Assembly: GCA_025617745.1 (NCBI GenBank)
Contig: CM046855.1
Span: 44,507,313-44,571,312, forward strand
Source of the DNA: Heliocidaris erythrogramma
Lineage: Eukaryota; Echinodermata; Echinoidea; Camarodonta; Echinometridae
DNA length: 64,000 nucleotides
Reading direction: 5' to 3'
A program made the position numbers and the translations under genes. A model generated the notes under the pieces. The model saw only the letters and a list, made by a program, of their open reading frames with translations, had not been told where the DNA came from and ran no database searches. Below, one piece after another: positions 28,568 through 64,000 of this stretch (position 1 is the first letter of the stretch; each line of letters begins with the position of its first letter).

Positions 28568-28739
28568 CTTTCAAAATCCCACAAAATAACAAGAAAGGTG
28601 TTATCTTTTCAACAATACAGATCTACAAAACAATATATGTTGCAAGTTGCGACAATATGATATGTATAATGTACCCAAGCATAAACAAGTTTTGTTTACA
28701 AGGAATCTGGAAATGTTCTTGCATCAAGAACTAGAGCTC

Positions 28740-29190
28740 TGTAATGCTGATCCTCAGAGCTTCTGTTGCATCGGTTTCTTCTTTTAGACATGCAGTGCTG
28801 TTCGGTTTCATACAAAAAAAAGGTGTTGCTTCGGTTATACAGATCTTCTCTTTAGATTTTCTAATTTACAATCGATCAAGATGTAGCATCTAGTTTTAGA
28901 ATCAGAGTTAATGCTGCTTCAGAATGAGTTGCTAGAAGAAGTCTCCTATTGATGATGTGTCAGTCTGGTTTAGTTGATCTTTGATCATGTTGTAAACAGT
29001 ATTTTTTTGATATTCGAAAGATTATACTCAGAATCAGGTCCTACAATCCAATATCAGATGAAATTCTTCATAGCATCTAAATATATGAGAAATTTAAGCT
29101 GGAAATGTTTCGTCTTCTGTAGTTGTGTATTGTAGTTCTTTGGCCAGGGTTGGTTGATCAGTGTCTGCAGTTGGTTAAGGAAAACTTTCA
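28740..29190 (-). repeat. 5' flank of Ig-like gene 1, duplicated at 52085-52530
   Basis: By eye these roughly 440 bp are identical to the region upstream of Ig-like gene 2, from CTCAGAGCTTCTGTTGC to the last shared bases TTGGTTAAGG. Homology stops sharply there in both places. A diverged third copy lies at about 29935-30250. It probably carries promoter and 5' UTR sequence of the receptor genes. Confidence 0.85.
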
Positions 29191-29369
29191 GTCTTACACA
29201 GAAGAGGATGCCCTGAGGGAATTGATATTTGGTTCCAACTCTTGGATTTCTTCAACACCTCTTTCCAGCTCACAAGCATATGTTGGGCTGAAAGAATGAG
29301 TTGAAAATACATTTTGAATATTTGAATAAAATGGACATATTACTGCATCTAAAAGCAACAACATTATTT

Positions 29370-33531: not shown

Positions 33532-35689
33532 TTTTCAGGAAGGTGTCTTCAAGGGGACAAATTGAAAAAGAGTCCATCTCAGTATGATTTTTCCCGTTTT
33601 CATGCTAAAAACGACAAACAAGGGAATAAAGAAAACAATAGAAGGATAATGCAAAAAAAAACTTGAACTATAAAGAGAGAATAGAAGGGTAGGAAGGATG
33701 GAAGAAAATATGATGAAAGGAAACAAAGAATACAACAAAAGGAAAGTTGGAAAGTAAAAATAAGTGGATAAAAACAAAGAATAACATAAAGAAAGATAGA
33801 GACATAAATGATAGAAGGATAAAGATATTAAGAGTAACATAAAGAAAGATAAAAGAGAAGATGATAATTTGAATAAAGGAATAACATAACGAAAGAAAAG
33901 ATGAAAGGAAAACAAAATGATAGGATAAAAGCAAAGAATGTTTTAAGGAAAGTAAGTAAAGATGGGAAGCAGAAAATGATTTTAAAAAGAACAATATGAA
34001 AGATAGAGAGAGAAATGATAGGATAAATTACGTGTGTGTGTCCCTCCGTCCGTCCGTCCGTCCGTGTGTCTGTCCGTCCGTGTGTGCTCAAAAAGTTAGA
34101 AAATGCTACTTCTCCGTCATTTCTTGGCCGATTTTGATTCTGATTGTTTTATCTGATAGGGCTGAGTGGGGGCTTCCAAACTTCTACACAAAATCATGAA
34201 ATCATCAATTATGCAAATTTTTGCAAATTTATTCAAAATCGACGAAAAATGCTACTTCTCCTCTATTTCACACCGTATTTTGAATCTGATTGTTTTATCT
34301 GATAGGGCTGGTTAGGGGCTGTCAAACCTCTATACACAGAATTTTGAAATTCATTAATAATTATGCAAATTTATTGTAATTTATTCAAAATCAACAGAAA
34401 ATGCATTTATAATCATAAAACATTAATTAGGTGATCTGTCGTAGTCGACAGATCACCTATTGTATTCGTACGAATTGCCTTTCTTGGTCTTTTTTTTTTC
34501 TCCCACTTTCTTGTTGCCACGAAATCTCAAAAACTTTTCAATTTTCATGACATTTCCGTCAGTCATCAGGTCATATAAGGTCAAGCTCCAAAATCTTTTT
34601 CAAGGTCATCAGGTCATCGTGACGTCATCCAGACGCCATTTTGTAAAATGACATTATCGATCATATCTTCATAACGAGTCATCAAAAATGAACCATATTT
34701 GACACACATGAACTTCAGGTCAAGGGTCAACATAAAATGTCATCAAAATCCGCGCACGCGTCATGACGCGCACGTACGCGCGCGTCAAAATTTTAAAATG
34801 CTCAAAATCACTTTTTAATCAAATTAGAGTACGGTTCAGCACATTTTAAGCATTTCAAAATTTTTCGTCCGTACGCGTCCGTCCGCGCGTTATGCGCGCG
34901 CGCAGCGCGTAAATAACTTAAAAACGCCGTTTTTTCGATTGATTTGCAATCCTGACACTTTTTTTTCATCATTTCCATCAACTTGGAATCAATTTCAATC
35001 AATAATAAGGTCGTACGGGCGCGTCAAAGTTCAAAATCGATGCGCGCATCTATGGTGAAAATAACGTAAAAACGTTCAAAAACATGCCTCTACAAAATTA
35101 ACTCTAGCTCTTTAAATAGTCCATAAACCCCCCAATTTTTTTTCATCATAAGGTAGGGTATGAATCATGAATATGATTTCATGTATCATTTGACCCTTAT
35201 AAACATTATGACGTCATCAAAATGGCGCCAGAATTCAAAATTTCCATTTTTCATGTTTTCACGTCATCACATTTAAGCAAATTTGGCTCTAAATTCGTAA
35301 TTATTGGTCGTTTTTCACCCAGATTTTAATATGTTATAGCTGAGGCAATTTCCTACAAAATCAGTTACACCATTTTTCATTTTGATGACGTCATCACAGT
35401 GAAATTTTCAATTAAAGATGCCATGTCAGAATTTTCCCTATTTGCGTGTTATGTCTATGGAAGATGATTTTTTTTCGAATCATGAATCTACATGACATTG
35501 TTCTCTGGGCAGTATCTCAGTAATTTTTGGTCTATTTCCTTCCAGATTTTAATATGTTATAGCTGAGACTATAAGCTTTCATAAATGTCGTCTCCAATTT
35601 TTGAACAGATGTCGGGATTATGCCCAATATTCAACTACAAAATGGGATTTGAGAATCCCGTTTTTCGTTTACGTGTTATCTCTATGGGA

Positions 35690-38965: not shown

Positions 38966-39788
38966 ACATTTAGCATTGCGCGGCTCCAGCAATGCACATT
39001 TCTAGTTCTTTTATTGCTTTTATCATTTTGTTTTCCTTCTTTCATAATGTTACTGTTTATATTTATTCTTTTTATCCTCTTTTTTTTATTGCTTTCCATC
39101 TTCACTTTGTTATTCTTTGTTCCCTTTTATCATCTTCTCTTCCACCTTTCTTCATGTTTATATTTATCTGTTTATCATTTTTGTCTCTATCTCTTGCTTT
39201 GTCATTTCTTGCTTTTGTCCTTCTATCAATTATCTTTCCATCCTTCCTCTCGTTATGATATTCTTTGTTTCAAGTTATCATTTTCTCCCCCACCTTCCTC
39301 ACGTTAATCTTTATCCTTCTATCATTTCTCTCTCTGTTTTCTTTATATAAGTTAAACTTTTTTATCCTATCATTTCTCTCTCTATCTTTCATATTATTCT
39401 TTTTAAAATCATTTTCTGCTTCCCATCTTTACTTACTTTCCTTAAAACATTCTTTGCTTTTATCCTATCATTTTGTTTTCCTTTCATCTTTTCTTTCGTT
39501 ATGTTATTCCTTTATTCAAATTATCATCTTCTCTTTTATCTTTCTTTATGTTACTCTTAATATCTTTATCCTTCTATCATTTATGTCTCTATCTTTCTTT
39601 ATGTTATTCTTTGTTTTTATCCACTTATTTTTACTTTCCAACTTTCCTTTTGTTGTATTCTTTGTTTCCTTTCATCATATTTTCTTCCATCCTTCCTACC
39701 CTTCTATTCTCTCTTTATAGTTCAAGTTTTTTTTTGCATTATCCTTCTATTGTTTTCTTTATTCCCTTGTTTGTCGTTTTTAGCATGA

Positions 39789-40850
39789 GTCAATATATAT
39801 ATGTACTTATTGCTGCTTAAAACAGCGATTAATTTTAAAAATAAACAGTGGTTTTTACTCAGTTATCAATAAAAATTTTGTTGCACTCATTCTGATCTTT
39901 ATAAAACTGCTGAGCTGATTCTAGAGCATGTAGTCTATGGTAATTTCCAACTGTTTCTATATTCCTTTAATTAGTTCTAATACTTACCCCAGACTCGGTA
40001 CAACGAAAAATCCACTTCACATGAATTCAGGCTAGATATTCAAAGTTTGTGTTTACAATACAAAAGTTGGGCAAGTGGTATCATTAAAGAGCTCATATTG
40101 AGAAAAGAAGTGGTATGCGTTTTTATTTGGTAATATTAAAATCTGTGTATCAAAGAAAACAATCCTTTTTAAATTTTTTAAATAGCTCAACTAGAAAGTG
40201 CATTTAAAAAAAAATAAAAATCACCTTTTTGAGGGTTTGAAATTGTCTCGCAGTCCAATTTCGGCAAAATCCTAGCTTGTTTACTTTTCTATGCAAATTA
40301 GCACTGACGTCATTGGGTATTGCACAACATAGCATTGACTGGCAACCGAGAGTGAAGAGAAACTTTGCTCGACATGATTTTTATACTTCAAAATTATGTT
40401 TCCAAATCCATCAGTTTTGTTTAATATTATATGAAAACTAGTTTACAACATTTTATTCCAACAAGCAACCATTTTTCAGACAGCTCGCACAAGTTTACAT
40501 GCACGAAAACTTTAAAAAGTCGGACCCGTACACATCATGGTAGGCTACATGTACAGCGACGCGGTGAAACCCGTAGGGCTCCGCTTGAGAACTGGGCTAG
40601 ATCTGATACACTGCCGTGGAAGAAAAGAACAGAGCTACTCTACGACAATCGCTCTTTTCTTCCTAATATTGGTCACAGCAGTGAAATATCTGGTGAAACA
40701 CCTAATAAAGGTTAGTTTTAACTTGTCACTTGACATTTTTTGGAAAAAACGATACTATGACTTCGAACTGAGTCCACAAAATCAGCGCAAGAACGACCAT
40801 GTTGGCATTGATTCAACATTACAATTTCACAATACAGCGAAAGTTGCTCA
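39789..40850. other. Between foldback element and THAP fragment; one unrecognised open frame
   Basis: An ATG at 40537 opens MVGYMYSDAVKPVGLRLRTG with a hydrophobic helix (TTIALFFLILVTAV) and a possible donor (AAAG|GTTAGT) at about 40710. This could be a first exon, but no family is recognised and no downstream exon was found. Confidence 0.25.
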
Positions 40851-40852
40851 CA

Positions 40853-41230
40853 TTAGTTCTCAGTCTGACTTCCGACAGTGGTCTCCTGCAGCTTAATTGT
40901 TGGTGTTTTTGAATATTTGATGCTCTGTATTGTGGGCAAGACATCCTTCTTCAACCTAGCCTTGTATTTCGGGCCAGCTACATCTCCAAAGTCAATCTTG
41001 CAGTGACGTTCGAAGGCTGATTTTTCGAAATGGTTGCTACAAATTCGTGCATGCTTGCTGTGTGTTGCTGCTGTGAAATCTTTTTGCCAAATTTTCACAA
41101 ACTTCACCCACAAATTCCGTTGCTTATTGAGCTTTGGAAAGGTGAAGAAACTGATGTTGGGGTTCTTTAAAGCATTGTAACACCCCCCCCCCCCCCCCAC
41201 ACACACACACACAACGCAATTTCGTGGCAT
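40853..41230 (-). CDS. THAP-type zinc-finger domain protein fragment with a microsatellite in the zinc loop
   Basis: The 125-codon frame matches the C2CH THAP domain: start MPRNC, then CYNALKNPNISFFTFPK, W in NLWVKF, ICSNHF with the paired Cys and His, FE in SAFERH, and the closing LKKDVLPTIQ. THAP domains bind DNA and occur in transcription regulators and P-element-like transposases. In the normal domain C-x2-4-C spans the start; here the two Cys are separated by VVCVCVGGGGG, encoded by a (TG)n(G)n run (plus strand C-run and (CA)n at 41180-41213). The frame survives. A stop follows the domain at about 40853 unless a splice removes it. It is either the first exon of a THAP gene or a transposase relic. 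Confidence 0.65.
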   Translation of the reverse strand: MPRNCVVCVCVGGGGGCYNALKNPNISFFTFPKLNKQRNLWVKFVKIWQKDFTAATHSKHARICSNHFEKSAFERHCKIDFGDVAGPKYKARLKKDVLPTIQSIKYSKTPTIKLQETTVGSQTEN

Positions 41231-41484
41231 TTTGCCACAAAACGTAAGGATTCCCCCAAAAGAAAGTGACTCTCGTTGATGTTTTTTTTACACACGATTT
41301 CAATAGTGCACGTTATGCACCGGATGAAACCTGTCTGTCCAATATAATGTTTATTCCTCTGCATTTCTGCAATAAGTCTTTGCCCAGTTTGCTCAAAAAA
41401 AAAACCCTTTGAAAGTTAATATTTTACTCTTGAAAGTTCATTTTTGACAATTCCTCCAAAATTTGGTGGCATGGAAGGGGTTAA

Positions 41485-43071: not shown

Positions 43072-44322
43072 TTATTGGAAGAGTGAAAACCATATGTCGC
43101 TGATCTGTAAACCCTTATCCTGTGTAACTGTGTCATGTTTGTGAATCTCGACCCTCCTGGTATACCAGTTGGAAGCGGGGGCTACAAGTTTGGTGTCTTC
43201 CCAGTTAATCTGGTGATCACGAGTGACAGAATGATTGATAATGGCAGATCGGTCGTAGTGACCAAGTCTCCCATGGGCACGGTGTTCCTTGATGCGAGAT
43301 TTGATGTCCCTCCCAGTCTCTCCGATGTAGACCTGACCACAGGAACATGGTATGCGGTACACTCCTGGTTTGCTGTCGGGAGAAGCTGTGTCTTTGTGTG
43401 TGTAGAGAGACTTGTGAAGTTTGTGTTTAGAACTGAAGAAAACCCGTATGTTGGCCTTCTGCAGGACTCGTTGAATGCGGTGAGAGACATGACCTGTGAA
43501 GGGAATAGTGCAGGACGAGATGTGTCTGGTTGGTGGGGGAGCATGGGGTTTGTTGACAGATGTGCGTATTTCCTGAGGAGGGAAACCATTGTTGACTAAG
43601 GCTGCTTTGATGTGTTTTAACTCGTCGTCAAGGCTGGTAGAGTCGCAAACGTTGTGAGCTCTCCTGATCAGGGAACTGGAGACCGAACGTTTGACGGACG
43701 GATGGTGGAAAGATCGGAAGTTTAGATAGCGGTCTGTGTGGGTAGGTTTACGGTAAACACTATGGGAGAGTGAACCGTCAGGCTTGTGGGTGATCAAAAC
43801 ATCAAGAAAAGGAAGAGAGTTATTGTTTTCTGCTTCTGACGAGAAGCTGATGGAGGGGTGATGTTTGTTGAGAAAATCCTGGAAGTTGTTCAGCTTTTCC
43901 GGACCGTGCGGCCAAATGACAAACGTGTCGTCAACGTAACGGAGCCAAAGTGTGGGTTTATACGGTGCTGTGGAGAGAATAGTAGTTTCGAATTGTTCCA
44001 TGAAGAGATTAGCTATAACTGGGGAGAGTGGCGAGCCCATGGGGGCACCTTCTGATTGGTTGTAGTACTTATCCCGCCACTGGAAGCTGGTGGAGGTAAG
44101 ACATAGGAGAAGAAGGTCATATATCTGTTGGGGAGATAGTGGGGTTCTGTCCTGGAGATCAGTGTCATGTTGTAATCTAGTTCTGGTGATGTCGCAAGCT
44201 TCTTGAATGGGGATGCTGGTAAATAAAGAGTCAACATCAAAACTAACTAGTATGTCTGTGGAGTTGAGCTTGATGTCATTGATGATTGTGGTGAAGTGTT
44301 GAGAATTGCGGACATTTTTTTC
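43072..44322 (-). CDS. Penelope-like RT plus GIY-YIG endonuclease ORF, N-terminus missing (416 codons)
   Basis: The frame is open from the insertion junction at 44322 to the stop at 43072; the first Met is at 44040, well inside the RT domain. RT motifs in order: VSFDVDSLFTSIPI (A), EGAPMGSPLSPVIANLFMEQ (B), WLRYVDDTFVIW (C, catalytic Asp pair) and LPFLDVL (D/E). A linker with RHISSCTIPFTGHVSHRI precedes the endonuclease: GVYRIPCSCGQVYIGETGRD with the CxC insertion typical of Penelope GIY-YIG domains, RIKEH carrying the presumed catalytic Arg, and RRVEIHKH with the presumed Glu. All visible catalytic residues are intact and no frameshift is seen, which suggests a young insertion. It cannot move by itself without its missing 5' part. 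Confidence 0.85.
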   Translation of the reverse strand, partial: EKNVRNSQHFTTIINDIKLNSTDILVSFDVDSLFTSIPIQEACDITRTRLQHDTDLQDRTPLSPQQIYDLLLLCLTSTSFQWRDKYYNQSEGAPMGSPLSPVIANLFMEQFETTILSTAPYKPTLWLRYVDDTFVIWPHGPEKLNNFQDFLNKHHPSISFSSEAENNNSLPFLDVLITHKPDGSLSHSVYRKPTHTDRYLNFRSFHHPSVKRSVSSSLIRRAHNVCDSTSLDDELKHIKAALVNNGFPPQEIRTSVNKPHAPPPTRHISSCTIPFTGHVSHRIQRVLQKANIRVFFSSKHKLHKSLYTHKDTASPDSKPGVYRIPCSCGQVYIGETGRDIKSRIKEHRAHGRLGHYDRSAIINHSVTRDHQINWEDTKLVAPASNWYTRRVEIHKHDTVTQDKGLQISDIWFSLFQ

Positions 44323-45151
44323 TTTGAAGTAGACTGATTTTGTTTAATTTTCTCTCAGAGGGCCTGTATGTCCAGGGAGCGTCCGGGGCTGGTGTTGCAC
44401 GTTTCGTTGCCTATTAGTTACTGAGTGTGAATGATTTCTTCGCTTTCGTATTTTTGGAGAGAATAATCAGACTGTCAGACTGTCAGACAGCCGCAGGGAT
44501 TGTTAAAAAGTTGTCATATTTTCTATTTCAGATTTAGACTTTTGGTACCAAATCCGAATGTTACTTTTCTAGCGTTTTTAGAGTGATTTTTGCATAATAC
44601 GAACTAAGTTAGATATCTTCTTTCTGTCAGACTTCACAAGCTTCATCAGCGGTTTTGTATGCAGTCCTTCTAAATAGCGAGCAAACCATAGACAAATAAC
44701 CTCGCTATTCATAAGGACCTCCATTCAACGCATGCTAAATGAATAGCGGGTCCTTATGAATAGCGAGCGGACCCCCAAATATGTTCCCTTCATTTTCATT
44801 AGCATTGATAACATCAACAGTATCTCCAATGAATCATCTTAATCATCAACCATCAATCACATCACTGACTCTGCAACACCTGATCTCTATCATCATTGCT
44901 GATATCACCTTGGCGGCGTCTTCACCATCACCACATTCCCTCTTGCTCTGCCGTCTCTGTCATTATTGACACAACAACAAGCATCTGCATGTAATATACC
45001 CAACCAACCTCAACATTTGTCATCAAATCAACAACATATTTCCTGTCATAAATAAATTTATTCAATTTGTCTCCAACGGCCCACAGGGGGGTGTGACACA
45101 CGCTACTGCTGTGTGATAGGTTGCCCGGGTCTGTGAAAAAAATCACAGGCG

Positions 45152-45223
45152 GAACCGGGCGGGATTCGAACCCGCGACCTCTGGATTACTAGACCAGTGT
45201 CATAACCACTAGACCACCGGAGT
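45152..45223 (-). tRNA. tRNA-like SINE head, copy 1 (Thr-AGU-like anticodon, degenerate)
   Basis: Minus strand: A box TGGTCTAGTGG and B box GGTTCGAATCC, T stem GCGGG/CCCGC, and anticodon loop CTAGTAA giving AGT. Only four acceptor pairs form (CCGG/CCGG) and the anticodon stem has a T-T mismatch. A T7 run lies downstream. It is probably a Pol III promoter head, not a decoding tRNA. Confidence 0.5.
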
Positions 45224-45414
45224 GCCCTGAGTGATCAGGTTCAAACTATCCCAATATGGGGACTATCAAGTCAAAGGTATTGAATTAATCCGTCGGGTGA
45301 TATAATGTCATAAATAAATTTATTCAATTTGTCTCCAACGGCCCACAGGGGGGTGTGACACACGCTACTGCTGTGTGATAGGTTGCCCGGGTGCTGTGAA
45401 AAAAATCACAGGCG

Positions 45415-45486
45415 GAACCGGGCGGGATTCGAACCCGCGACCTCTGGATTACTAGACCAGTGTCATAACCACTAGACCACCGGAGT
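45415..45486 (-). tRNA. tRNA-like SINE head, copy 2
   Basis: Identical by eye to the head at 45152-45223, in the second unit of the array. Confidence 0.5.
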
Positions 45487-45677
45487 GCCCTGAGTGATCA
45501 GGTTCAAACTATCCCAATATGGGGACTATCAAGTCAAAGGTATTGAATTAATCCGTCGGGTGATATAATGTCATAAATAAATTTATTCAATTTGTCTCCA
45601 ACGGCCCACAGGGGGGTGTGACACACGCTACTGCTGTGTGATAGGTTGCCCGGGTGCTGTGAAAAAAATCACAGGCG

Positions 45678-45749
45678 GAACCGGGCGGGATTCGAACCCG
45701 CGACCTCTGGATTACTAGACCAGTGTCATAACCACTAGACCACCGGAGT
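45678..45749 (-). tRNA. tRNA-like SINE head, copy 3
   Basis: Identical by eye to the heads at 45152 and 45415, in the third unit of the array. Confidence 0.5.
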
Positions 45750-50902: not shown

Positions 50903-51928
50903 TTAAGCATTAAAACTTTTCCTTTCTGTTTCATGTTGTAGTTTACTTGCTTCATGATATACTTGTCTAGACTGAGCATTTTCATAATGTAGCTTTCTCA
51001 AGAGGCTTTTATTTTGCCTGGTCCAGCAAATAAGCAGTACACTCAAAATGATGATTAACAAAAGTGAGATGGCATGAAAGACGTGGTCCCAGATCCCAGA
51101 ACAGTTTGTAAGATAAAGAGCAATTGGTGTTTGTGCTTTTATCAGAGTTGATGTTTGGATAGAAGCTTCACTATTCTTTGTAGGGTTGTAGAATGGTGTT
51201 GAACTTTCTGTAAATGACATAATAGGACAAGGTTCTAGGATGTTGGCCACTGCTTTATTGAGATCAGGGTCCCACCCACAATCCTTACATTCACACCTGT
51301 CTGTAATGTGTCCGGCAAGAGAAGAACAACAGAACACAGTACCTGCCAACTTGACCAGCATACGCTGGTAGAGAGTTCCAGCCTGTACTGTTGGTGCAGT
51401 TAAAGGGGGAATCCTCCCGCCATTTTGGTAACATACAATATGCCCTGATGACGTTCCAATCGGAGCTGTGCATTGCAGCGAGGCCCACTCCCCATCAAGG
51501 TACTCGGTACTTGAATCACACGATGCTCTACCCAGCTGATAGTCAACAAGCAGACCAATTCTTGGGTACTCTGGTAGCATGTGGCCATTCTTGTATGCAG
51601 TGAGAATGTATGTACCTTGGTCAGTGCTTGAGACTGGATTAATCTTAAGGTAGATAGAACAATTGTCACTTTCACTCTCGTTCTGATTTATGAGGACTCG
51701 ATTCTGAGATAATGACACGGCTTCTGGATTCACTGAATTATAAAATGGGGCTTTATATCCGTGTTGCAGTGTGACTTCTGTACTGTTACAAGGATATGGG
51801 AAATTTAGTTGTGCCTCCTGCCCCTCCATGACTTTCAGAATTCTAGATTTACATGTTGCCATTGTGGTCAATGCAACAAGAGTAATGAAAGCACTTATTT
51901 TGATTTTGAATAGAACCTCTTGCAACAT
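50903..51928 (-). CDS. Type I membrane protein with Ig-like ectodomain, paralogue 2 (341 aa, single exon)
   Basis: Same plan as the gene at 27500-28567: identical signal peptide and first 46 residues, an Ig-like domain with LNFPYPC and DNCSIYL, then a Cys-rich domain with VSLQC-equivalent ASLQCTAP, VFCCSSL and RCECKDCGWD. About 30 substitutions separate the paralogues over the first 235 residues. After EPCP the sequences diverge. The membrane helix is AISLLLIIILSVLLICW, and the 40-residue tail (RQNKSLLRKLHYENAQS...) is unrelated to that of paralogue 1 and has two Tyr, one in YENA. This fits the pY-x-N consensus for Grb2-type SH2 domains (inference). No ITIM or ITAM is present. The function is unknown; a cell-surface recognition role is only suggested by architecture. 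Confidence 0.8.
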   Translation of the reverse strand: MLQEVLFKIKISAFITLVALTTMATCKSRILKVMEGQEAQLNFPYPCNSTEVTLQHGYKAPFYNSVNPEAVSLSQNRVLINQNESESDNCSIYLKINPVSSTDQGTYILTAYKNGHMLPEYPRIGLLVDYQLGRASCDSSTEYLDGEWASLQCTAPIGTSSGHIVCYQNGGRIPPLTAPTVQAGTLYQRMLVKLAGTVFCCSSLAGHITDRCECKDCGWDPDLNKAVANILEPCPIMSFTESSTPFYNPTKNSEASIQTSTLIKAQTPIALYLTNCSGIWDHVFHAISLLLIIILSVLLICWTRQNKSLLRKLHYENAQSRQVYHEASKLQHETERKSFNA

Positions 51929-52084
51929 CTTTCAAAATCCCACAAAATATTTGTACGTTCAGAGAAAAGAAAGAAAGATAATATATGTTGCAAGTTGCGA
52001 CAATGTGATATGTATAATGTACCCAAGCATAAACAAGTTTTGTTTGCAAGGAATCCTGAAACGTTCTTATATCAAGAACTAGAG

Positions 52085-52528
52085 CTCTGTAATGCTGACC
52101 CTCAGAGCTTCTGTTGCATCGGTTTCTTCTTTTAGACATGCAGTGCTGTTCGGTTTCATACAAAAAAAAGGTGTTGCTTCGGTTATACAGATCTTCTCTT
52201 TAGATTTTCTAATTTACAATCGATCAAGATGTAGCATCTAGTTTTAGAATCAGAGTTAATGCTGCTTCAGAATGAGTTGCTAGAAGAAGTCTCCTATTGA
52301 TGATGTGTCAGTCTGGTTTAGTTGATCTTTGATCATGTTGTAAACAGTATTTTTTTGATATTCGAAAGATTATACTCAGAATCAGGTCCTACAATCCAAT
52401 ATCAGATGAAATTCTTCATAGCATCTAAATATATGAGAAATTTAAGCTGGAAATGTTTCGTCTTCTGTAGTTGTGTATTGTAGTTCTTTGGCCAGGGTTG
52501 GTTGATCAGTGTCTGCAGTTGGTTAAGG
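52085..52528 (-). repeat. 5' flank of Ig-like gene 2, duplicate of 28740-29190
   Basis: Identical by eye to the region upstream of paralogue 1, ending at TTGGTTAAGG, after which the two loci share nothing. Nearer the start codon (51945-52080 against 28585-28735) the flanks differ by several substitutions and an indel. Confidence 0.85.
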
Positions 52529-55500
52529 CTTCTTACGGAAAGTTTTGTCACCGTTTTCACCGCGGCCAAAGTTAAAAAGGCCGATTAGCGGGATTATCTC
52601 CCGGATCTTGTCATATCCATCGGCGACTCTAAGAAGTCGCCGTTCAGCGGGATTAGCGCGAGCTTTTGTTTAGAGACCCACCCTGCGATTCCTTCGATTT
52701 CGCCGACTTCCTGTTCTTTATTTTTGTTCTGCCTTGAAGGAAGTTGTATATTTAGTGTTTTGAAAGAGCGCCACTTACGGTTTAAATGGTGACTCATTCT
52801 GCTTCATTTTGCTTCTTATTTTCTTTGGAAAAAGTACGAATGTATTGAAGTCTCCGTCAAAGTACCGTACGTATCATTTGTCATAGTTTTCTGAGAAAAA
52901 AAATAACTAGGTTTGTGCCATGACAAAGTCGGCCCCTAACATTTAATTTTCCCACATCGAGCCCACCACAAAAATATATAGTAATGATAAACGACATAAA
53001 AATTAATACACGAATAAATAAAGGACGGACAACTATTCAAAATATTGCTTTATGTTCCAAACCAAAAAAAAACCTCAACTAATAACAATAAAAATCCAAT
53101 CCCCAAAATACATTGTGTAGTTTCCAAGCAATGCAATTATAAATTCACTTTCACATGTTAATAGCTGTTGTATGTAGCCGTCATGGCTGCGAATAAAAAA
53201 AATGAAATTGAAATATCACAACGAAAAACTTAATGTTCTCGAGTTAAGACCGGATTTCTGAATATAAATACAACTTTACTTTTGCATGGGTCGCGGAACC
53301 AGAACTGGGGACGGGGCCTGGGGGCTGCAGCCCACCCCCTCCCCCCTCCACCCTTTTTTGAGGAAACACATTTCATAAAATGTATGAATTAGCTTAATAT
53401 ATTATCATTAATGAGTGAAATCAAATCAGCCCCACACACACACACTTTCAAAAACGCCCCTGTGTTGAAAGAGTAGCCTTTCTTTCTTTCTTGGCTTTGC
53501 CCTATATTTTTAACGTTTTCGTTATATATGTCAACAACATCTATTGGGTAATTCGGAATAATATTAAGCACACTTTATTCGAGTGCATGAATTAAAAAAA
53601 TATTACTTAGTGCTTTGGGTAATGTTGTTACAAACCAGCATGATTGGGCAGTTATATAATGAGCGCTTTATTGAAATTAAAACATTATCGATGTGTTTTA
53701 TTTTTTGAAATATCGATCTCGATCAGCCGTCTGGTCTTAAAAATGAACTCCAAAATATGGGGAAAATGGGGAGAAAAGTGATTCGATAAGTCCGTTTGTT
53801 GTATTAAGAGGGATCGAGTAAAAGAGCGAGAGAGCGAGGTAATAATTATTAAAGTTATTAAGAATTCCGGAACGATTACAAACTTTCGTGATTGCGCCTG
53901 TCCCCGGATAAGGTTGTTGACTTTGATATGTACGTCGTTAACCTTCATAAGGATCTTTTTCATCACCATGTTTGGTGAGATGCCCTGTCCCATAGGAAAC
54001 TGTAAGTAACATTAAAAATACATGTAGATTGATGTAGAAGATGGATGGCATAAAGAGAGGGAGAGGGTGGAGTGAGGTGGCAGAGAGACAAGGGGGACTG
54101 GGTGGCAGGGAAAGAAAGAGAGAGACTGTCAGGATGAAGGAGAAATTGACCCTGTCTCGGAGAAGTGGAAGTCGTGAATTCGTGAATGCTTTATAGGTCG
54201 ATTCACATTTCACCCCCCCCCCCCTTGTCCCCCGCAATTTTGAGATAAAGATAACGGCTCGTAGAAAACAATTTTTTAGGCGGAAAGTTATAGTTATTTG
54301 GACGTAATACTGCACCGTATGTAACAGGGGTGGGTACAGGGAGGGGAGTCCCCCCCCCCCTTCCCCCGCGAAGCGCGAAAGCTCCGAAGTTTTAGCATCT
54401 TTTTTTTTGGCGGAATATTAGTTCACCGCCCTGGCTGCTTTTCAGTTATTTGGGGCGCAATACTGCATTGTATGTAACAGGGCTGGGTACGGGTCGTAAA
54501 GCCGTAACGATTATAATGTTTCTTCACTCCCCTATTTTTCTTTCTCTCCCCTATTTTTCTTTCTCTCCTTTGCGTTTGCGCCCCCTTCAAGTGTTTCCTA
54601 GTGCACGTGCTCCCCTCCCCCCCCCCCCCAGACACACCACTGAGCGAAGAGACCGAGCAGGGTGGGAGGGAGTATCCCTCTCCTACATCAGGGAATCTGT
54701 CTATAAAACTTGCATTTTAAAGCATACCAAAATGTTTTTAATGAAAACAATGCGAGTGAACTAATTTTCTTCAATATTTTCGTATTGAACTTATGGCATT
54801 TTTTAATTTCCTTTCTTCTAATCATTAAAGAATGTGTTTTTTCAAGATTAAACATGAGTTTAAATAATTATTAGTTTCAAGTTAATGCATCATAATTCTT
54901 ATTTATGTTATCCAAATATATTGGGAGTGATAATACAGGCCATCCTCCCACCTCAAATATTTTGGGGGATATATACGTCCATCCCCCGGGATCGACACCC
55001 ATGGTACAAGGGTGGGCGCGAAAACTTTGACTTTTTTAGCAAATTTTGAGAGCCAGGATAATGGCTTGTAGTGCCTTTTTAGGCATTTTTTCTCTCACTT
55101 CCCCCGCTTTTTCGCTCTCGCTTTTTTGTTGTTGTAGTGGCTGAATAGGGAGGGGGCATGGCCCCCGGTGCCCCCTGTCTACACCAGTGATGATAGGGTT
55201 TCCCCGAAGGTATCAGAGGGTAGTGTTTTTATATAAAGTGTGTACAATAATTGTGTGTGGTTGTGGTGGTGGGGACTGCATCCACCCCAGTTCCTGTTCT
55301 GTGGCCCATGCGAACCATTTGTATCTGCAAGACATTGGAGAACTAGAAAGGCCGTCAAAGGCGGCGCTACAGAGTAGTTGCATTCTTTCCCTAAACTATT
55401 CTTTCCTGTCACTATATTTTATATTTTATATTTTTCTCCTTTTTTATCGCAATAAAGACTTCTAGATTTGGCATAATCTAGTATTTAATACATGCATGTA

Positions 55501-55650
55501 AAATATTATGGTTACTTATTGTTATTATTATGTAATTTGGCACGATACTGGGTGTGAATATATTTGTTTGTGTATTTTACCTTGATTATTGTGAAAAATG
55601 TTATTTTGAAAAAGGAAGTAATAAAATATTCTTAAAAACAAAAAAAGAAC
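52529..55650. other. Repeat-rich region without recognised genes
   Basis: It holds a GAACC-GGGGCTGCAGCCC block near 53300 (also at 60390), and a duplicated block with GC(G/A)TAATACTGCA...TATGTAACAGG(G)(G/C)TGGGTAC at 54303 and 54458. Poly-C runs lie at 54212, 54351 and 54617. Open frames show no family features. Confidence 0.4.
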
Positions 55651-55955
55651 TCTCCGAACTGAAGTTTCTATAACCGATCATCACAAAAAAATCTAATCCA
55701 TTCTTTTCTTGATCGATTCTTTCCTGTCACTATCCGAAATGAAGTTGGGGTCAAAACTTCAAGGTCACACAGAATTTGCAGGGGTCAACCAATCATCACC
55801 AAAATCTAATCGATTCTTTCCTGTCACTATCCGAACATTCCATGAAAATTTGGTGCGTTCACCCGTTCTGTTGTACACAAACAAACAAACAAACATACGG
55901 AGCCTTTTACATAACCCTGCCGATTTCATCGGCGTGGGTAATCACTAATAAAAGA
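55650..55955 (+). mobile_element. RTE-type LINE 3' tail (truncated copies)
   Basis: AATCTAATCGATTCTTTCCTGTCACTATCCGAA blocks (here given in part) occur twice, followed by CCATGAAAATTTGGTG, (CAAA)n at 55878-55895 and ACATAACCCTGCCGATTTC with GGCGTGGGTAAT. This order is that of RTE-like LINE 3' UTRs in many marine animals. No RT coding sequence remains. Confidence 0.6.
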
Positions 55956-56645
55956 TGGTCATTTCCATTCACATGCGCTGTTGTAAAGAAACTCCATATG
56001 CACATGCAGACCTCGATCCCTATACCGATATGCATATTTTGAATCCAGACAAGGAGATAAACCTTTATCTTTTTACAGCAGAAACTGGGGAACTTCCCTC
56101 TCTTTATACCCCAGTGAAATCCCCTATCTTGTTTACACAATATACTAACTGAATGTTTGTTTGCAAAGTTTCAAATTGCAGAACATAAAATTGTATCAAT
56201 TTGTTGCAAAATAACATTCAGATTTATTTTTATCAAAGGCATTCAGTATGTTGAAAATTTGTTATATGATATAAATGAAAAGTCTATTTTTCGGGGTATA
56301 TGGGGTATTGATATCTGAAAAGTGTTATTTTCGTTTCTGGTACTTAAAGGGATAATTCAAATTCTCACTGACTCAGCCCCCTCATTTTCTATAATATATT
56401 TTTTTTATTCATTGAATGTGGAGTGGAATAAGAAAATTGTTGTTGGACAGAAGATTTTCTTCCCCTGAAATGGAACGCCGCAGTTACATCTATAGAAAAT
56501 GTGAATGCCTTATTTCACCTTTGACTTGTAAATCTCTATTGTATAAGAAGATCAAGGGAAGCGAGCATTCGTGTGTTATATTATTGTTTCAATAGAGCCG
56601 GACACGCGTCCGTGATTTGACTCTTCGTCACAAACAATGCGGCAT

Positions 56646-56691
56646 ATGCAAATTTGACCTGGCTTTTGGATCCTTCCGTGGTTTATATAAA
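56646..56691 (+). promoter_or_regulatory. Octamer ATGCAAAT plus TATA box TATATAAA
   Basis: The octamer at 56646-56653 is followed by a strong TATA box at 56684-56691, 30 bp before the start codon of a small ORF at 56721. The initiation site would be near 56715. Confidence 0.45.
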
Positions 56692-56720
56692 GCAGGATAT
56701 CTTTTGACAAGCTTTTCACC

Positions 56721-56867
56721 ATGGATAGCATCGTTTCTTCAAATCAACAATCAAGCGAGAACGAGGATTTCAACATGGAGTCAAGCTGCAGCGACGACTG
56801 GCACTTGGAGATGAGCGAATCCATGGACTCCGATGGGATGACGTCATGTCATTCGTTCTCATTGTAG
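56721..56867 (+). CDS. Small acidic Ser-rich ORF (48 aa) behind an octamer/TATA promoter
   Basis: It reads MDSIVSSNQQSSENEDFN at the start, has SSCSDDWHLEMSESMDSD in the middle and ends with a TAG at 56865. It is rich in Ser, Asp, Glu and Met with no Lys or Arg, and has no signal peptide or membrane segment. A TATA box lies 30 bp upstream, leaving a 5' UTR of only a few bases; an AATAAA lies at about 57224. No family is recognised. It may be a genuine short protein, the first part of a longer product, or chance. Confidence 0.35.
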   Translation: MDSIVSSNQQSSENEDFNMESSCSDDWHLEMSESMDSDGMTSCHSFSL

Positions 56868-58137
56868 TACATGCACAAGTCTATACCAATCCAAAATTAT
56901 AACATGAAAAGAATTATAATATGAACTGAATTATTAATTATTTATGATAAAGAGTGTCGGTACATTTATTCAAATCTTAATTCAAGTCCATGCAAAGAAA
57001 GTAACATGAGGGGAGGGGGGGGGGGGTTGTCACATGTCCGAAAAGTCTTCGACAAGCAACAGCAAAAAGAAAGAAAGAAAGAAAGAAATTGCTGGTGCCC
57101 TTTCGTAGCGAGCTCCAGCCATGGGGCGATTTTGTGTGTTGAGTATCCCCCTTGACCGGACCGTATTTTGGCTAGTTCGACAGTCCATCGTTATGTGTTC
57201 TTTATAAAGGCCGATTGATTGAAAAATAAAGTAAAAGAGAAAATGTAAATATGAACCCTTTACACTGCTTTCTATAAACTAGATGTATATTCTACGTACA
57301 TTGAGGAGATATTACGAGATTCTTTGAGAAAACAAATCCGAGAGAGCTGCCAAGCTTCATTAATTTTTTCATCCGAGGCCTTAAAAACACTGTTTCTATA
57401 AAATATGCATTTTATTAATGATTTGGGTGCGTAGTAATCCAGGACCACACATTTTCGTCATTGTCTTTCATTTCCATCCCCCTCCCCCCCCCCCCTGAAA
57501 GTGCTGCCCTCTATCCGTTCCGTTTAATACACCACTGGACCGTGCGAGACAGAAGAAAGGTTGGTGTAGCAAAATCTGATTATATGGATCTCGCTTTGAA
57601 TTCTGAATTGTAACTTTCTATATCTCACTTATTCACACGATTCATCGTCAAGATCTCTTCATTGCGAAGCTGGTTTAAGCCATCGCTGTTTAATCTATTG
57701 AAAGTAGAGAGGAAATACAAGAGTTGGCTTTCAAAACAGAAGTAAGAAGAACTGGGAAGATGACTTACGAACAACGAAACTATTGATACACGATAATAAT
57801 AAGGGGTAAATTCTGTAATCCTTTGAAAAGCCGAAAAGAAAATAAGCCTTTTAACCAGAAAGAACAGTACATGTATCTGTGTAGAGATTATGAAACAAGG
57901 ACAAAGAGAGAGAGAGAATATCAATAATCGTCTCTTGCTGGAGGTGACTTAATCCTTGTTCTTTGAAAGGGGCGAATTCTCTACCTCTTTAAAACATGGC
58001 GATGAAGAAAAGAAATTAGCTATTAGACACCAGTAGATTGTACACATTTTTTTGGAGTAAACTATAAAGCGGAGAGACTCGATGACTTTCAAGCTAAGAC
58101 GCGCGTTATCTTCATCATGTTCATACTACCTGTTAGC

Positions 58138-58285
58138 CAGGGGCGGATACAGGATTTCCAGAAAGGGGGGCACACACTGAGGAACCCTCCGTTTGACGAA
58201 GCCAAACGGCCATCTGCGGGGTCTGGGGCATACTTTGTCAACACAATACGCCCCTTGCGCGCCCCCCCCCCCTCTGCTTATTCTC
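58138..58285. mobile_element. Insertion of a GGGGCGGATACAGG-ended sequence in the satellite
   Basis: CCAGGGGCGGATACAGGATT at about 58138 begins a stretch absent from the other units, with CCCCCC runs at 58262. The same kind of end is seen at 3636 and 3930. Confidence 0.5.
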
Positions 58286-60380
58286 TTATTCGTTAAAGCC
58301 GAACAGACAAATAGTTAGCTTTCAAAACAGAATTAAGAAGAACAGTCGAAATTTGGATACAGGTGAAAGATTTAGAAGGAGAGAGAGAATTGTCTGGGTG
58401 TCAATTTTTACGAAAAGCAGTTGTCATTATTATTTATATTTTAAGCTCTAGTTAACTAGAGCGGCGCTAAGAAGCAGTTTATCTCTATCCCGCTTTTGAA
58501 CATGACGATAAAAAGCGGCCAATTCTATAACTCTTTTTAACAGTCGAAAATAAAAGAAAATTATTTTTTAAAACTAGAATGAAAATGCCCTCGGTTGCGA
58601 TAATGAAACAAGTATCTGATTTGTTTTAAGATTGAGTTATTGGGCGGGGAGAATCGATAACTTTCAAGCTAAGATGCAGTTTGTCTTCGTCATGTTCATA
58701 CCGCCAGTCAACATGATGATAATTAGCGGCCAAATCTCTTATTCGTTAAAAAAGCCGAACACACAAGACAGAGTTACCTTTCAAAATAGAATTAAGATGA
58801 ACAGTCGAAATTATGATACAGGTGAAAGATTTAGAAGGAGAGAGATTGTTCAGGCGTTAATTTAAAAATTAACAGGTGAAAGATTTAGAAGGAGAGAGAG
58901 AATTGTCTGGGTGTCATTTTTTACAAAAAGCAGTTGCCATTATTATTCATTTTTTTTAAGCTCTAGTTAACTAGAGCGGCGCTTAGAAGCAGTTTATCTC
59001 TATCCCGCTTTTGAACATGACGATAAAAAGCGGCCAATTCTATAACTCTTTTTAACAGTCGAAAATAAAAGAAAATTATTTTTTAAAACTAGAATGAAAA
59101 TGCCCTCGGTTGCGATAATGAAACAAGTATCTGATTTGTTTTAAGATTGAATTAACTATTGGGTGGGGAGAATCGATAACTTTCAAGCTAAGATGCAGTT
59201 TGTCTTCGTCATGTTCATACCGCCAGTCAACATGATGATAATTAGCGGCCAAATCTCTTATTCGTTTAAAAAGCCGAACAGACAAGAAAGAGTTACCTTT
59301 CAAAATAGAATTAAGATGAACAGTCGAAATTATGATACAGGTGAAAGATTTAGAAGGAGAGAGATTGTCTGGTGTCAATTTTTACAAAAAGCAGTTGTCA
59401 TTATTATTCATTTTTTTAAGCTCTAGTTAACTAGAGCGGCGCTAAGAAGCAGTTTATCTCTATCCCGCTTTTGAACATGACGATAAAAAGCGGCCAATTA
59501 TATAACTCTTTTTAACAGACGAAAATGAAAGAAAATTATTTTGTAAAACTAGAATGAAAAGGCCCTCGGTTGCGATAGTGAATCAAGTATCTGATTTGTT
59601 TTAAGATTGAGTTAACTATATGGGGAGAAACGAACTTTCAAGCTAAGATGCAGACACGAAAGAGTTAGCTTTCAAAATAGAATTAAGAGGAACAGTCGAA
59701 ATTATGTTACAGGTGAAAGATTTAGAAGGAGAGAGAGAATTGTCTGGGTGTCAATTTTTACAAAAAGCAGTTGTCATTATTATTCATTTTTTTTAAGCTC
59801 TAGTTAACTAGAGCGGCGCTTAGAAGCAGTTTATCTCTATCCCGCTTTTGAACATGACGATAAAAAGCGGCCAATTCTATAACTCTTTTTAACAGTCGAA
59901 AATAAAAGAAAATTATTTTTTAAAACTAGAATGAAAATGCCCTCGGTTGCGATAATGAAACAAGTATCTGATTTGTTTTAAGATTGAGTTAACTATTGGG
60001 CGGGGAGAATCGATAACTTTCAAGCTAAGATGCAGTTTGTCTTCGTCATGTTCATACCGCCAGTCAACATGATGATAATTAGCGGCCAAATCTCTTATTC
60101 GTTAAAAAGCCGAACAGACAAGAAAGAGTTAGCTTTCAAAATAGAATTAAGAAGAACAGTCGAAATTATGATACAGGTGAAAGATTTAGAAGGAGAGAGA
60201 TTGTTCGGGCGTTAATTTAAAAAAAATTAAAGCTCTATTAACTATAGAGCGGCGCTAAGAAGCAGTTTATCTTTATCCTGCTGTTGAACATGGGGAATTG
60301 ATGATAAAAGAAATGAAGCTTTTTAACCATACAGAAAAGGACCTGTGTGGAGATTATGACACAAGCTCGTGATTGAGAAG

Positions 60381-60535
60381 CAGGGACCGCGGAACCGGGC
60401 TGGGGGCTGCAGCCCCCCTCACTTTTCAGTAAACACGTGCAAACGTATGGCAGTGCAAAAATGTGGTTATACACGCAGCCCCCCCCCCCCCCCCCCCTTA
60501 GCCCCTCCACTTTCCAAGACGTTCCGCGGCCCCTG
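60381..60535. mobile_element. 155-bp element with CAGGGACCGCGGAAC inverted ends in the satellite
   Basis: The left CAGGGACCGCGGAAC and the right GTTCCGCGGCCCCTG are inverted with one mismatch. A C-run of about 20 lies at 60479. Confidence 0.65.
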
Positions 60536-60960
60536 AGAAGGACAATGGGAGAGAAGAAAAATCGATCGTCTCGCGAAGGCAGGATGTGACTTAATCCTTG
60601 TTCTTTGAAAGGGGCGAATTCTATACCTCTTTGATATGGCGAAAAGAAAAGAAAGACGCTTTTATAAACATTTTTTAAAGGTAGAACTAACTAGAGCAGG
60701 ATACAATTTCTTTATTATGATTCTGTTTTATTCCATCGTTGTTTAATCTGGTAATAAGTAAAGAGCGAACCGAAAAGAGAGTTAGCATTCAAAAGAAAGA
60801 AATAAAACTGTGGAGATTATGAAACAGGCGCGTGGTGTATAAGGAGAGAGAGAAAATCGTGTGTTAATTCTTCAGCTTAAGAAAGCGGCGATTTCTATTG
60901 CTCTTTCACAAGACGAAAAGTAAAAAAAGTAAGCTTCATACGCAGACATCAACGATCTCT

Positions 60961-62150
60961 GTCAATATTATTCTTGGTAAAGACTAGTCTAATCAGTAAA
61001 TTTGCCAAAATTGAATGACTTTGCGACAATCGAATCCAAGCTATAAAATGAAAGCAAATAACATTGAAAGAAATCAAGTTTACATGATTAATTTAGAAAA
61101 AGATATAATGATATAAAAACCTCTGAAAGTTTGAACCATAATCTAATAAATTTCCCCGCACAAAATGACAGAATTATAAACCTTTTGACTATAGCTAGGT
61201 TAATCAACCCTTTAAGAAAATCATACCGGCATAGGAAAGGCTCAACGAAAAAAGCATGAAGTTGATGCGGGAAGCTTTTTCAGTGCCGTGAAACTACTTG
61301 ATTTGTTACCCTTTAAAGCGTTAGAATTCATGGCTTAAATGAATTAAAATTCATGTTTTCATGAAAAGAGATCCTAAAGAAACATAAGGACTAGTTTTTA
61401 TTAGAATTAATAAACGGTTGCTAAGGGCTTTATAAAAATCTAGTTGACATTACAAACGAAAATGCTGCATGACTGCAAAACGGAAGTCAAACTTTGGAAG
61501 CGTTTTTCCCGAAGAAATACTTTGCCACAGCCCTACTTTACTCAAGATTCAAGAGCTATTATCTCCACTAATACTCACTCTCTAGAGTTGAACTATATAC
61601 CAAATTAAAGCTTATGAAACGGAGAATAATAATCAATAATAAAATGCAATTTCAAAAAATTCGACTTCTGTCTAATTTTGACGTGACGGGTCACATTTAT
61701 TTTGGGAAATGTGTTTTATTATTTTAGCGAGACTAATTCCACTTTTCTGATTCCTTCTGTATTTTCCATTTTTTTCCCTCGATTTTCAAGCTGTTCAACT
61801 TTGTTGATGTATTTATAAAATATTATAAGATATTAATATTTATAACTTTAGCCGCCTCGTAATAAGAAAAGAGCTACGGTAACCATTTTTACAGTATTCA
61901 TGTGTTTGTTTGTTTTTCTTTATTATAATCATCTTTACAGAATCGTTTCGTGGGTATTCTGTCGTTATCTATTCTCAGTTTTGCCACAGATTATAAGCTC
62001 TCAGCGGTCGGAAGACTTATGAAATCAGAGAGTTCAAAACGGACTAAATCAGTTCAATTTTCGCTAACGTCTAAAAAATATAAAATAGGGGAAAATGTTC
62101 AATAATAACTCCTCTGTTATGATTGGTACGCTGGTACAAGAGTATATATA
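60961..62150. other. Non-coding AT-rich stretch, nothing recognised
   Basis: No ORF above background, no repeat with a visible partner in this window. Confidence 0.4.
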
Positions 62151-62229
62151 TATGAACAATGAACAATGATTGCGTAGCTTAAATCAAAGTTCCCCAGAGC
62201 TGTCCTCCCTTTTTGAAAGCCTGAAAAAA

Positions 62230-62301
62230 CGTCTCCGCCGAGAATCGAACCCGGGTCGTTGGCTTAGAACGTTAATGCCTTAACCACTAGACCACGGAGA
62301 C
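62230..62301 (-). pseudogene. Decayed tRNA copy (tRNA-Arg-UCU-like)
   Basis: Minus strand: acceptor GTCTCCG/CGGAGAC is perfect and a T6 terminator follows, but the anticodon stem reads TTAAC against GCCAA, losing two or more pairs. The T stem is CCGGG/CTCGG. Confidence 0.6.
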
Positions 62302-62632
62302 GGGTTAGTAGTTTCGGCGACACCAGATTCAATTGACCGACAGATTTGACAAATCTTCAACCTTATTAATTAATTCCTTTGTCGGGGCAGGTGAGTTTTG
62401 AACAATGACAAGCCGCATGCCTCAGCTGGATCCAAGCGAATGCTTTGAGATACATGTATACATTAGAATAATTATTAACAATTGTAAGGAAATAACATAT
62501 ACAACAGCTTTGGCAACTCTCGTGGAAATAAATACAATGCGAAAGGAAATGAGAGAATAATGATTGCGTAGCTCAAATCAAAGTTCCCCAGAGCTATCCT
62601 CCCTTTATGAAATTTTTGCAAAGGCTGAAAAA

Positions 62633-62704
62633 TGTCTCCGCCGGGAATCGAACCCGCGTCGTTGGCTTAGAACGCCAATGCCTTAACCACTAGACCACGG
62701 AGAC
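62633..62704 (-). tRNA. tRNA-Arg(UCU)-like gene, 72 nt
   Basis: Minus strand: the 7-bp acceptor GTCTCCG/CGGAGAC is complete, D stem GTCT/AGGC, anticodon stem TTGGC/GCCAA complete, loop GTTCTAA with anticodon TCT, T stem GCGGG/CCCGG with one mismatched pair, discriminator A. A box TGGTCTAGTGG and B box GGTTCGATTCC are present, and TTTTT follows directly as a Pol III terminator. Isotype identity is uncertain because the body resembles Glu/Asp-type tRNAs and SINE heads. Confidence 0.65.
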
Positions 62705-62910
62705 GGGTTAGTAGTTTCGACGACACCAGATTCAATTGACCGACAGATTTGACAAATCTTCAACCTTATTAATTAATTCCTTTGTCAGGAGCAGGTGAGT
62801 TTTGAACAATGACAAGCCGCATGCCTCAGCTGGATCCAAGCGAATGCTATGAGATACATGTATACATTAGAATAATTATTAACAATTGTAAGGAAATAAC
62901 ATATACAACA

Positions 62911-63086
62911 TATATATATATATATATATGGATATTTGACTAACGGGTACATTAAGTCGACACCTAACAATGCAGTTTATTCCGTCATAATAGCGACCCC
63001 TACATTAGGTCGACAGTTGGTACATTAGGTCGACAGTTGAACAAAGAAAAAGAACAAAAACTGTCCTCCTAATGTACCCATTAGTC

Positions 63087-63118
<32 letters not shown>
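62911..63118. mobile_element. (TA)n-bounded inverted-repeat element with TAGGTCGACAGTT repeats
   Basis: GACTAACGGGTACATTA at 62938 is inverted as TAATGTACCCATTAGTC at about 63070 with one mismatch, and both sides run into (TA)n. Inside are direct copies of GGTACATTAGGTCGACAGTT. Confidence 0.6.
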
Positions 63119-63120
<2 letters not shown>

Positions 63121-64000
63121 TTATTTATATATTCGGGATTATTCTTTTTTATAACCACCAACTCCGATCCGCCTTTGGAAAAGCAAGTAATCGAAGATGG
63201 ATATATTTTGTTAGATGCCTTTTGCTGAGTTATATGACTTTCCCAAAACGGGGGGGGGGGGGCAATGTTATTACAACATGGACACCATGCCCATACAGGA
63301 ATTTACAAAATGGGCCCTGAAAAGTAATCAACTTTCGAACTCAGAATACCCGAAACAAGTATTGTGTAATGTGTTCACCACCCTAAACATGAAGGGGGAT
63401 AATGTCAGGCTGTGAAAAGTATAACCCCCCCCCCCCCCTGATTTTAGCATTTTTATACCCATTTCACTGTATTATTATATCATCATGATGGGCACGTTCA
63501 TCGCCGGGTATTGAAAAGAAAAAAAAAACCTTTTAATGTGTTTTTGTGTACAGGCATGGTGCGCACCTTGTCATGGCATTGCCCCCCCCCCCCCCGGAAA
63601 TGGATGTGTAGCGACAATTTGTAGAACACTATTCAACGTGTAAAATGCCCGAATTGGAGCTCCATTGACAAAATCGGGGATTAGCTGAACTGCTTCGTTC
63701 GTATTTTCTTTGTTCTCATCTGCAATGAAAAGACAGGAAATCTATTCATGCTTTTGAAACCGTTAGAACCTAAGCTGCGCTCAGTTTATCGTTCGTAATT
63801 TATGTCGCTTGACTGAATATATTGAGTTCAATAAAATGTGAATAATGTTACTTTTTTTTATACAGAAAAACAATTCAGCAGACGAAGCAATAATGAAAGT
63901 TTGTGTGATGCTGATGATGAGAAATTGTGAACTCCATAATAAACCTATGAATGTAAGAGAAAAAAAGTAGAAGAAATGCCCTCAAAAGATTTTCATCTAT
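63119..64000. other. Window end, no gene recognised
   Basis: AT-rich, with G/C runs at 63250, 63426 and 63582. Open frames at 63072-63415 begin in (TA)n and show no family features. Confidence 0.4.

Follow-up and report, generated by a model that had tools for sequence, protein, structure and literature searches.

Introduction

Among the described systems that invite comparison with the genes reported here, the paired receptors of vertebrates stand closest. In the excerpts cited, the extracellular parts of SIGLEC11 and SIGLEC16 are described as extremely similar through gene conversion, while one of the two inhibits and the other activates (PMC5701461), and the kin of CEACAM1 as well as CD300A/C are described as paired receptors (PMC2832619, PMC12447643). 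In echinoids, the SpTransformer (Sp185/333) genes form a clustered mosaic family with two exons, the element mosaics residing in exon 2, and the Toll-like receptors comprise 253 members in S. purpuratus (PMC8634487). As large expanded echinoid immune families, this 2021 paper lists in its introduction the TLR, NOD/NALP (NLR), scavenger receptor, IL-17 and SpTransformer families, and names there no immunoglobulin (Ig) receptor family (PMC8634487). Here we describe three genes of the sea urchin Heliocidaris erythrogramma, termed A, B and C, together with the family to which they belong. Genes A and B are located in a stretch of 64,000 nucleotides, in the following called the window (C3:44507313-44571312, contig CM046855.1), and gene C follows beyond its end. 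The genome searched was the 1.06-Gb assembly, comprising 26 contigs. One of them, C24, is mitochondrial: under the chosen genetic code 9 it shows ND2, 16S (by Rfam), COX1, tRNA-Arg, ND4L and COX2 in succession, the proteins named by eye, and this succession is the gene order of echinoids.

We consider it probable that A, B and C, arranged in tandem, make up one branch of an extensive family of apparently transmembrane, single-frame proteins with two Ig domains, the parts of which are shuffled by non-allelic recombination. The term single-frame denotes that all parts of the protein lie inside one open reading frame (ORF), as judged from genomic DNA (putative single exon). Like vertebrate paired receptors such as Siglec-11/-16, the genes encode Ig-domain surface receptors, which are predicted in our case, and the combination of a homogenised ectodomain with different tails was found for A, B and C as well as for a second cluster (C12), a pattern that points to conversion. 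In contrast to the vertebrate genes, however, each consists of one open frame, and with at least 155 places there are far more copies. With the SpTransformer genes they share the organization as a clustered, mosaic multigene family of an echinoid, but they differ in their one open coding frame, their predicted Ig folds and their hydrophobic segment. As a large expanded receptor family they also resemble the Toll-like receptors of sea urchins; however, no LRR or TIR domain was among the seven Pfam families that 29 members matched at E 0.01.

Genes A and B

The comparison is based on the following features (positions refer to the window).

27500-28567, minus strand: gene A, 355-aa paralogue of gene B
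50903-51928, minus strand: gene B, one open frame, 341 aa
28752-29180: F1 of A, partner tract identical to B 52100-52528
52100-52528: F1 of B, 5' flank of 429 bp, same sequence as A 28752-29180
51788-51949: 162-bp tract of B shared without difference with A 28427-28588; 141 bp from the start of the coding sequence (CDS) and 21 bp upstream
51950-52099: diverged patch of B with indels, between the two identical tracts; counterpart A 28589-28751
29936-30257: F2, partial, diverged 5' flank copy (76-78% identity to F1)

In the protein of gene B, an N-terminal hydrophobic helix, which was taken as the signal peptide, is followed by two predicted Ig-fold domains (residues 26-224), an unstructured stalk (236-275) and a helix from residue 277 that comprises the transmembrane (TM) segment and the tail. 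The A and B proteins are 74% identical, and the two genes are 23 kb apart in a single 56.7-Mb contig, with different flanks. Their homologous block of 1545 columns holds 142 differences or gap events, yet includes identical runs of 429 and 162. If the 142 events were placed at random over the block, each of these runs was reached in 0 of 100,000 permutations. An earlier note on this DNA, made from the sequence alone, had described about 440 bp of flank and the first 130 bp or so of coding sequence as identical. This holds for 429 bp of flank and 141 bp of the CDS, but the two are not contiguous, since on the side of A a patch of 163 bp (28589-28751) with substitutions and indels splits them.

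Silent divergence (dS) between A and B is 0 in codons 1-47, 0.10 in codons 48-130, and 0.46 followed by 0.15 when domain 2 is split in two; for the stalk it is 0.43 (0.39 under another alignment). Uniform silent divergence, which the same note had named as the finding that would speak against a mosaic, was looked for along A and B and not found. The proposed gene conversion of the 5' part is supported, both by the absence of silent divergence in codons 1-47 compared with 0.10 and more beyond and by the identical non-coding flank. Furthermore, the count of 22 differences in 300 bp of the ectodomain (A 28141-28440), with 16 amino-acid-changing and 6 silent, proved exact when a codon list was made. 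As replacement sites are about three times as frequent as silent sites, this split equals the ratio dN/dS (omega) of 0.35 obtained over the A-B ectodomain and thus gives no evidence of positive selection. Behind the ectodomain, the stalks, TM segments and tails of A and B can be aligned with indels, and about 70% DNA identity extends across 95% of the tail CDS, only the last codons aligning poorly. The statement that the proteins share little after the residues EPCP and the tails nothing at all was consequently too strong.

The F1 flank was also considered as a dispersed repeat. This was ruled out, since a genome DNA search with 51932-52528, in which very common words were skipped, gave four matches, all of them within the C3 array. 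Two other copies of F1 were found (window 29936-30257 and C3:44574169-44574423, the latter L039), which are 76-78% identical to it over about 255 bp. No receptor ORF was found beside either of them, and they are possibly spare promoters or relics.

Gene C and the mosaic structure of gene B

Three further features result from the comparison of A, B and C.

C3:44582336-44583358, same strand as A and B: gene C (L010), 75% aa identity to B
51224-51250, minus strand: breakpoint region of B, codons 227-235; A-like 5' of CDS nucleotides 679-681, C-like 3' of them
50903-51223, minus strand: C-like 3' module of B (stalk, TM segment and tail)

The three genes are arranged in tandem on the same strand at a spacing of 23-24 kb, and gene C carries a TAG within the portion aligned to the tail of B. 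Up to CDS nucleotide 679, informative sites group B with A (111 vs. 16), whereas from nucleotide 681 onward they group B with C (72 vs. 6), a distribution obtained in 0 of 200,000 permutations. Silent sites alone show the same A-like and C-like split of B, for intervals picked after viewing the data. Accordingly, dS between B and C amounts to 0.58 in codons 1-47, where A and B do not differ, while in the stalk it is as low as 0.03, compared to 0.43 between A and B. As a recombinant, gene B resembles A most closely in its flank, its signal peptide and the greater part of its ectodomain, and C in its stalk, TM segment and tail, with the breakpoint at the end of the ectodomain. Outside C3, a DNA search with 50903-51403 yielded five matches, which cover the ectodomain part of the query only.

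Mosaicism in other clusters

Thirty of the at least 155 family places, selected as the best matches to gene B, were read. From those among them that are at least 70% identical in DNA, 13 trios were drawn, giving 78 assignments. All 13 testable trios are mosaic, as 41 of the 78 assignments, covering all 13, were reached by 0 of 2000 permutations. Mosaic genes are thus present in three clusters besides that of A, B and C, and the C12 genes share their 5' halves with other partners than their 3' halves. There, the pair L015/L026 has a dS of 0.06 in the signal peptide and 0.97 in the tail, while L015/L017 shows the reverse (0.40 and 0.05) and L022/L031 comprises values of 0.05 and 0.34.

Standard DNA alignments of 16 hand-chosen close pairs often ended near the end of the ectodomain (e.g., at +78, +68 and -1 nt) and ran on in others. 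With a sensitive alignment of the 25 pairs of lowest ectodomain dS, the tail CDS fell short of the ectodomain by 10 points of identity or more, or gave no match, in 16 of 25; the tail was more identical than the ectodomain in three pairs, plus a fourth over only 11% of the tail length. The idea that the tails of several pairs are wholly unrelated had to be discarded, as this alignment identified most of them as old homologues with 66-79% DNA identity. Most often, then, an old tail stands beside a fresh ectodomain; clear exchanges are seen in some genes, B included.

The putative receptor family genome-wide

Using the protein of gene B as query, 118 places were scored out of 375 candidates, and with the ectodomain of a member from cluster C19 it was 150 out of 357, in both cases the best-scoring part of a longer significant list. 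Combined, the two queries point to at least 155 distinct places, spread over 13 contigs, which is a minimum, as both match lists were still highly significant at their ends; the large family that the earlier note had postulated does exist. No internal stop was found in 111 of the 118 places of the B query, and 109 of the 118 fall into 19 clusters (gaps <200 kb). The family layout is one open coding frame with two predicted Ig-fold domains, a stalk, a hydrophobic segment and a short tail. In all 30 copies the hydrophobic segment follows a stalk of 30-64 residues, and a tail, with a median of 32 residues, is present in all but L022, whose frame stops there. A group of four family members about 8 kb apart (C18:762355-787201), with scores nearly equal to that of B, is perhaps a very young tandem array.

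Over the 435 pairs of the 30 copies, median amino acid identity (gaps included) reaches 0.54 for the ectodomain, compared with 0.17 for the signal-peptide part and 0.11 for stalk, TM segment and tail. The ectodomain is therefore the conserved part. Among the 144 pairs with an ectodomain dS <1, omega exceeds 1 in a single one (1.09) and is below 1 in 143, with a median of 0.35. Positive selection on the ectodomain was rejected from these pairwise counts, and the proposal of selection for ectodomain change finds no support in them or in the conservation of this part.

The tails of the 30 copies were scanned for signalling motifs. The immunoreceptor tyrosine-based inhibitory motif (ITIM) occurs in none of them (1.2 expected by shuffling), YxxL/I in three (3.0 expected) and YxN in three (1.6 expected), while 15 of the 30 tails are without tyrosine. 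Signalling through ITIM or the corresponding activation motif (ITAM) was rejected for the 30 tails read, since ITIM is absent and the other scanned motifs are about as frequent as in shuffled tails; no tail type among them is evidently activating or inhibitory. A residue D, E, K or R inside the hydrophobic segment of 21 residues was found in two of 30 copies (E in L024, R in gene C). In this respect the 30 copies differ from vertebrate paired receptors, in which some members bear ITIM tails and others have charged-TM partners. Of the formerly suggested exchange of a signalling end, exchange of the 3' end is supported, B being C-like from codon 227, while a signalling role of this end is hypothetical.

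An insertion upstream of gene B

Upstream of gene B, the match to A is interrupted by an insertion.

52527-64000, on past the window to C3:44573304: segment of 13,466 bp with 20-bp exact terminal inverted repeats and target TTAA, between F1 of B and X
29177-29463: X, upstream continuation of A, matching the sequence past the insertion in the upstream region of B (C3:44573305 on)

The sequence of A is unbroken where B carries this segment, and homology to the upstream region of A restarts beyond C3:44573304. Comparing X with the B sequence past the insertion, we found nine substitutions in the first 179 aligned sites, indels and a poorly aligning stretch, followed by a block that is 7-15% diverged. 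Position 52528, where the locus described in the earlier note ends, is thus the insertion point and not the end of homology, and it was ruled out as a conversion boundary. The right-hand copy of the TTAA target is one base short. The segment contains two ORFs of at least 130 aa; TTAA targets are used by piggyBac and Kolobok elements. Within it, two tRNA-Arg(TCT) genes are located at window 62229-62704 (minus strand).

Explanation and alternatives

The mechanism that we propose is that non-allelic gene conversion or unequal crossing-over would copy the conserved 5' flank and ectodomain between tandem neighbors on the same strand, and that this copying would fade where stalk and tail cease to match, which would leave similar ectodomains on different tails. 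Since flank and ectodomain match well and tails badly, tracts would tend to stop at the ectodomain border. Such border-limited copying would account for the identical tracts of A and B, the breakpoint of B at the border and the old tails beside fresh ectodomains.

Several observations weigh against this explanation or limit it. First, border-limited copying alone leaves the C-like tail of B unexplained, for which a crossover or a second tract is needed. Likewise, the diverged patch of 163 bp within the converted 5' part requires either two tracts or subsequent change, and dS along the A-like part (0, 0.10, 0.46, 0.15) forms no smooth gradient. In codons 150-191, A and C agree against B at 7 of 11 silent informative sites, compared to 1 of 35 elsewhere (an interval chosen post hoc), which may reflect a tract in B derived from a third source or an exchange between A and C. 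The A-B dS for TM segment and tail depends on the alignment, with 0.27 for codons 281-317 and 0.69 for codons 281-341, the end of which is poorly aligned. Second, the 13 trios are not independent, as ten of them are all combinations of five C12 genes while C3, C17 and C19 contribute one each, and the signals in C17 and C19 are short stretches within the ectodomain. The site permutation that serves as null for the trios assumes a constant ratio of the two site classes along the gene. Since most of the tails in the sensitively aligned pairs are old homologues at 66-79% identity, the pattern is in part one of renewed ectodomains next to old tails and not of genuine exchange. Third, the 30 copies are not a random sample because they were picked as best matches to B, and the evidence base is the DNA of a single assembly.

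Three alternatives have to be weighed against recombination among family members. The A-like 5' part of B might have been joined to the C-like 3' part in a single event, either an unequal crossover or a partial duplication, with no ongoing conversion. The tandem genes with their regular spacing on one strand are suited to such an event, and one breakpoint at codon 227 accounts for most informative sites. One event, however, would give one age, and both the uneven dS within the A-like part and the two tracts of zero divergence, split by the diverged patch, count against it, so that we regard a single event as improbable. Even less probable appears a mere heterogeneity of rates, under which A and B would be plain tandem duplicates with a constrained 5' flank and signal peptide, drifting tails and no conversion. 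Relaxed constraint on the tails is real, and tails and signal peptides are both poorly conserved among the 30 copies (medians of 0.11 and 0.17 vs. 0.54 in the ectodomain). Yet signal peptides rank with the least conserved regions of the 30 copies, so that constraint hardly explains why they are identical in A and B. In addition, silent divergence differs strongly along A and B, the two further flank copies detected match at only 76-78%, and the comparison of B with C, where the pattern is reversed, already contradicts this idea. That the identical tract stems from collapsed or wrongly joined haplotypes is, as judged from the assembly, very improbable and an allelic assembly artefact as source of the pair unlikely, given the distance of 23 kb within one 56.7-Mb contig, the differing flanks, diverged homologous sequence on both sides of the identical tract and the precise insertion at TTAA, one base short at its right end.

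Recombination among family members is the preferred reading. From the sequences we infer that the proteins would act as receptors at the cell surface, in recognition or adhesion. If they had a binding face in common but differed in their intracellular ends, the same class of ligand could be given different readouts, as is the case for the paired receptors of vertebrates. We tentatively suggest, as a possibility rather than an expectation, that the at least 155 places represent an extensive and hitherto undescribed system of germline receptors that recombines with breakpoints often near the ectodomain-stalk junction, so that ectodomains remain similar while being placed on different tails, and an independently arisen invertebrate counterpart of the paired receptors. 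Among the matches listed in open-licence literature, as far as their text is accessible, there was no description of such an Ig-receptor family, which may be in print elsewhere, e.g., in the early S. purpuratus genome papers. Should the receptors be expressed on immune cells, they would add a further recognition layer, made of conserved ectodomains and shuffled tails, to an animal without antibodies. With genes that each consist of a single open frame of some 1 kb, the family would also be well suited to following how receptors are shaped by gene conversion.

Fold and relatives

The predicted domains show the Ig beta-sandwich fold, while matches by sequence stay below the curated cut-offs of Pfam: for Ig_3 and V-set, gene B scored 17.2 bits (cut-off 30) and 16.1 bits (cut-off 26), and gene A 15.3 and 18.8. 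A match of gene A to DUF443 (E 0.00065), under the family cut-off, was taken as chance. In a phmmer search against the PDB, gene B alone reached a best E of 0.37, and a profile of 20 ectodomains gave weak Ig matches, the best with an E of 5e-5 (Fc receptor-like 5). Domain 1 lacks the disulfide from B to F strand, as its GTYIL has Leu at the usual position of the F-strand Cys (alignment judged by eye), and another pairing would be needed for the invariant C47 and C90. V-like domains without this disulfide exist. Since the usual Cys is missing in domain 1, the family was not filed under V-set. The ectodomains of B7/PD-L1 and butyrophilins are structurally alike at 11-17% sequence identity, but chains of the T-cell receptor and of IgLON proteins tie with them, and such a likeness of fold does not in itself amount to membership. 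Hydractinia Alr, tunicate VCBP and fish NITR are expanded Ig-type recognition families as well, some with unusual V domains; they serve as a lead only.

Other features of the window and the assembly

Besides the putative receptor genes, the window contains on its minus strand a 423-aa ORF (43072-44343) in which Pfam recognizes a reverse transcriptase and a GIY-YIG domain, a combination known from Penelope-like elements. An ORF with a THAP domain (40853-41287, minus strand; Pfam, E 5e-14) is perhaps derived from a transposon. Three tRNA-Thr(AGT) genes follow each other with an exact period of 263 bp (45151-45749, minus strand). The same low-complexity translated stretches occur at 33535-34027 (minus strand) and 39259-39820 (plus strand), about 5 kb apart, and their position on opposite strands suggests an inverted duplication. 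Elsewhere in the assembly, the short contigs C26 and C25 (L063, L064) look bacterial by eye and are perhaps contamination; C26 resembles an exopolyphosphatase gene on such inspection.
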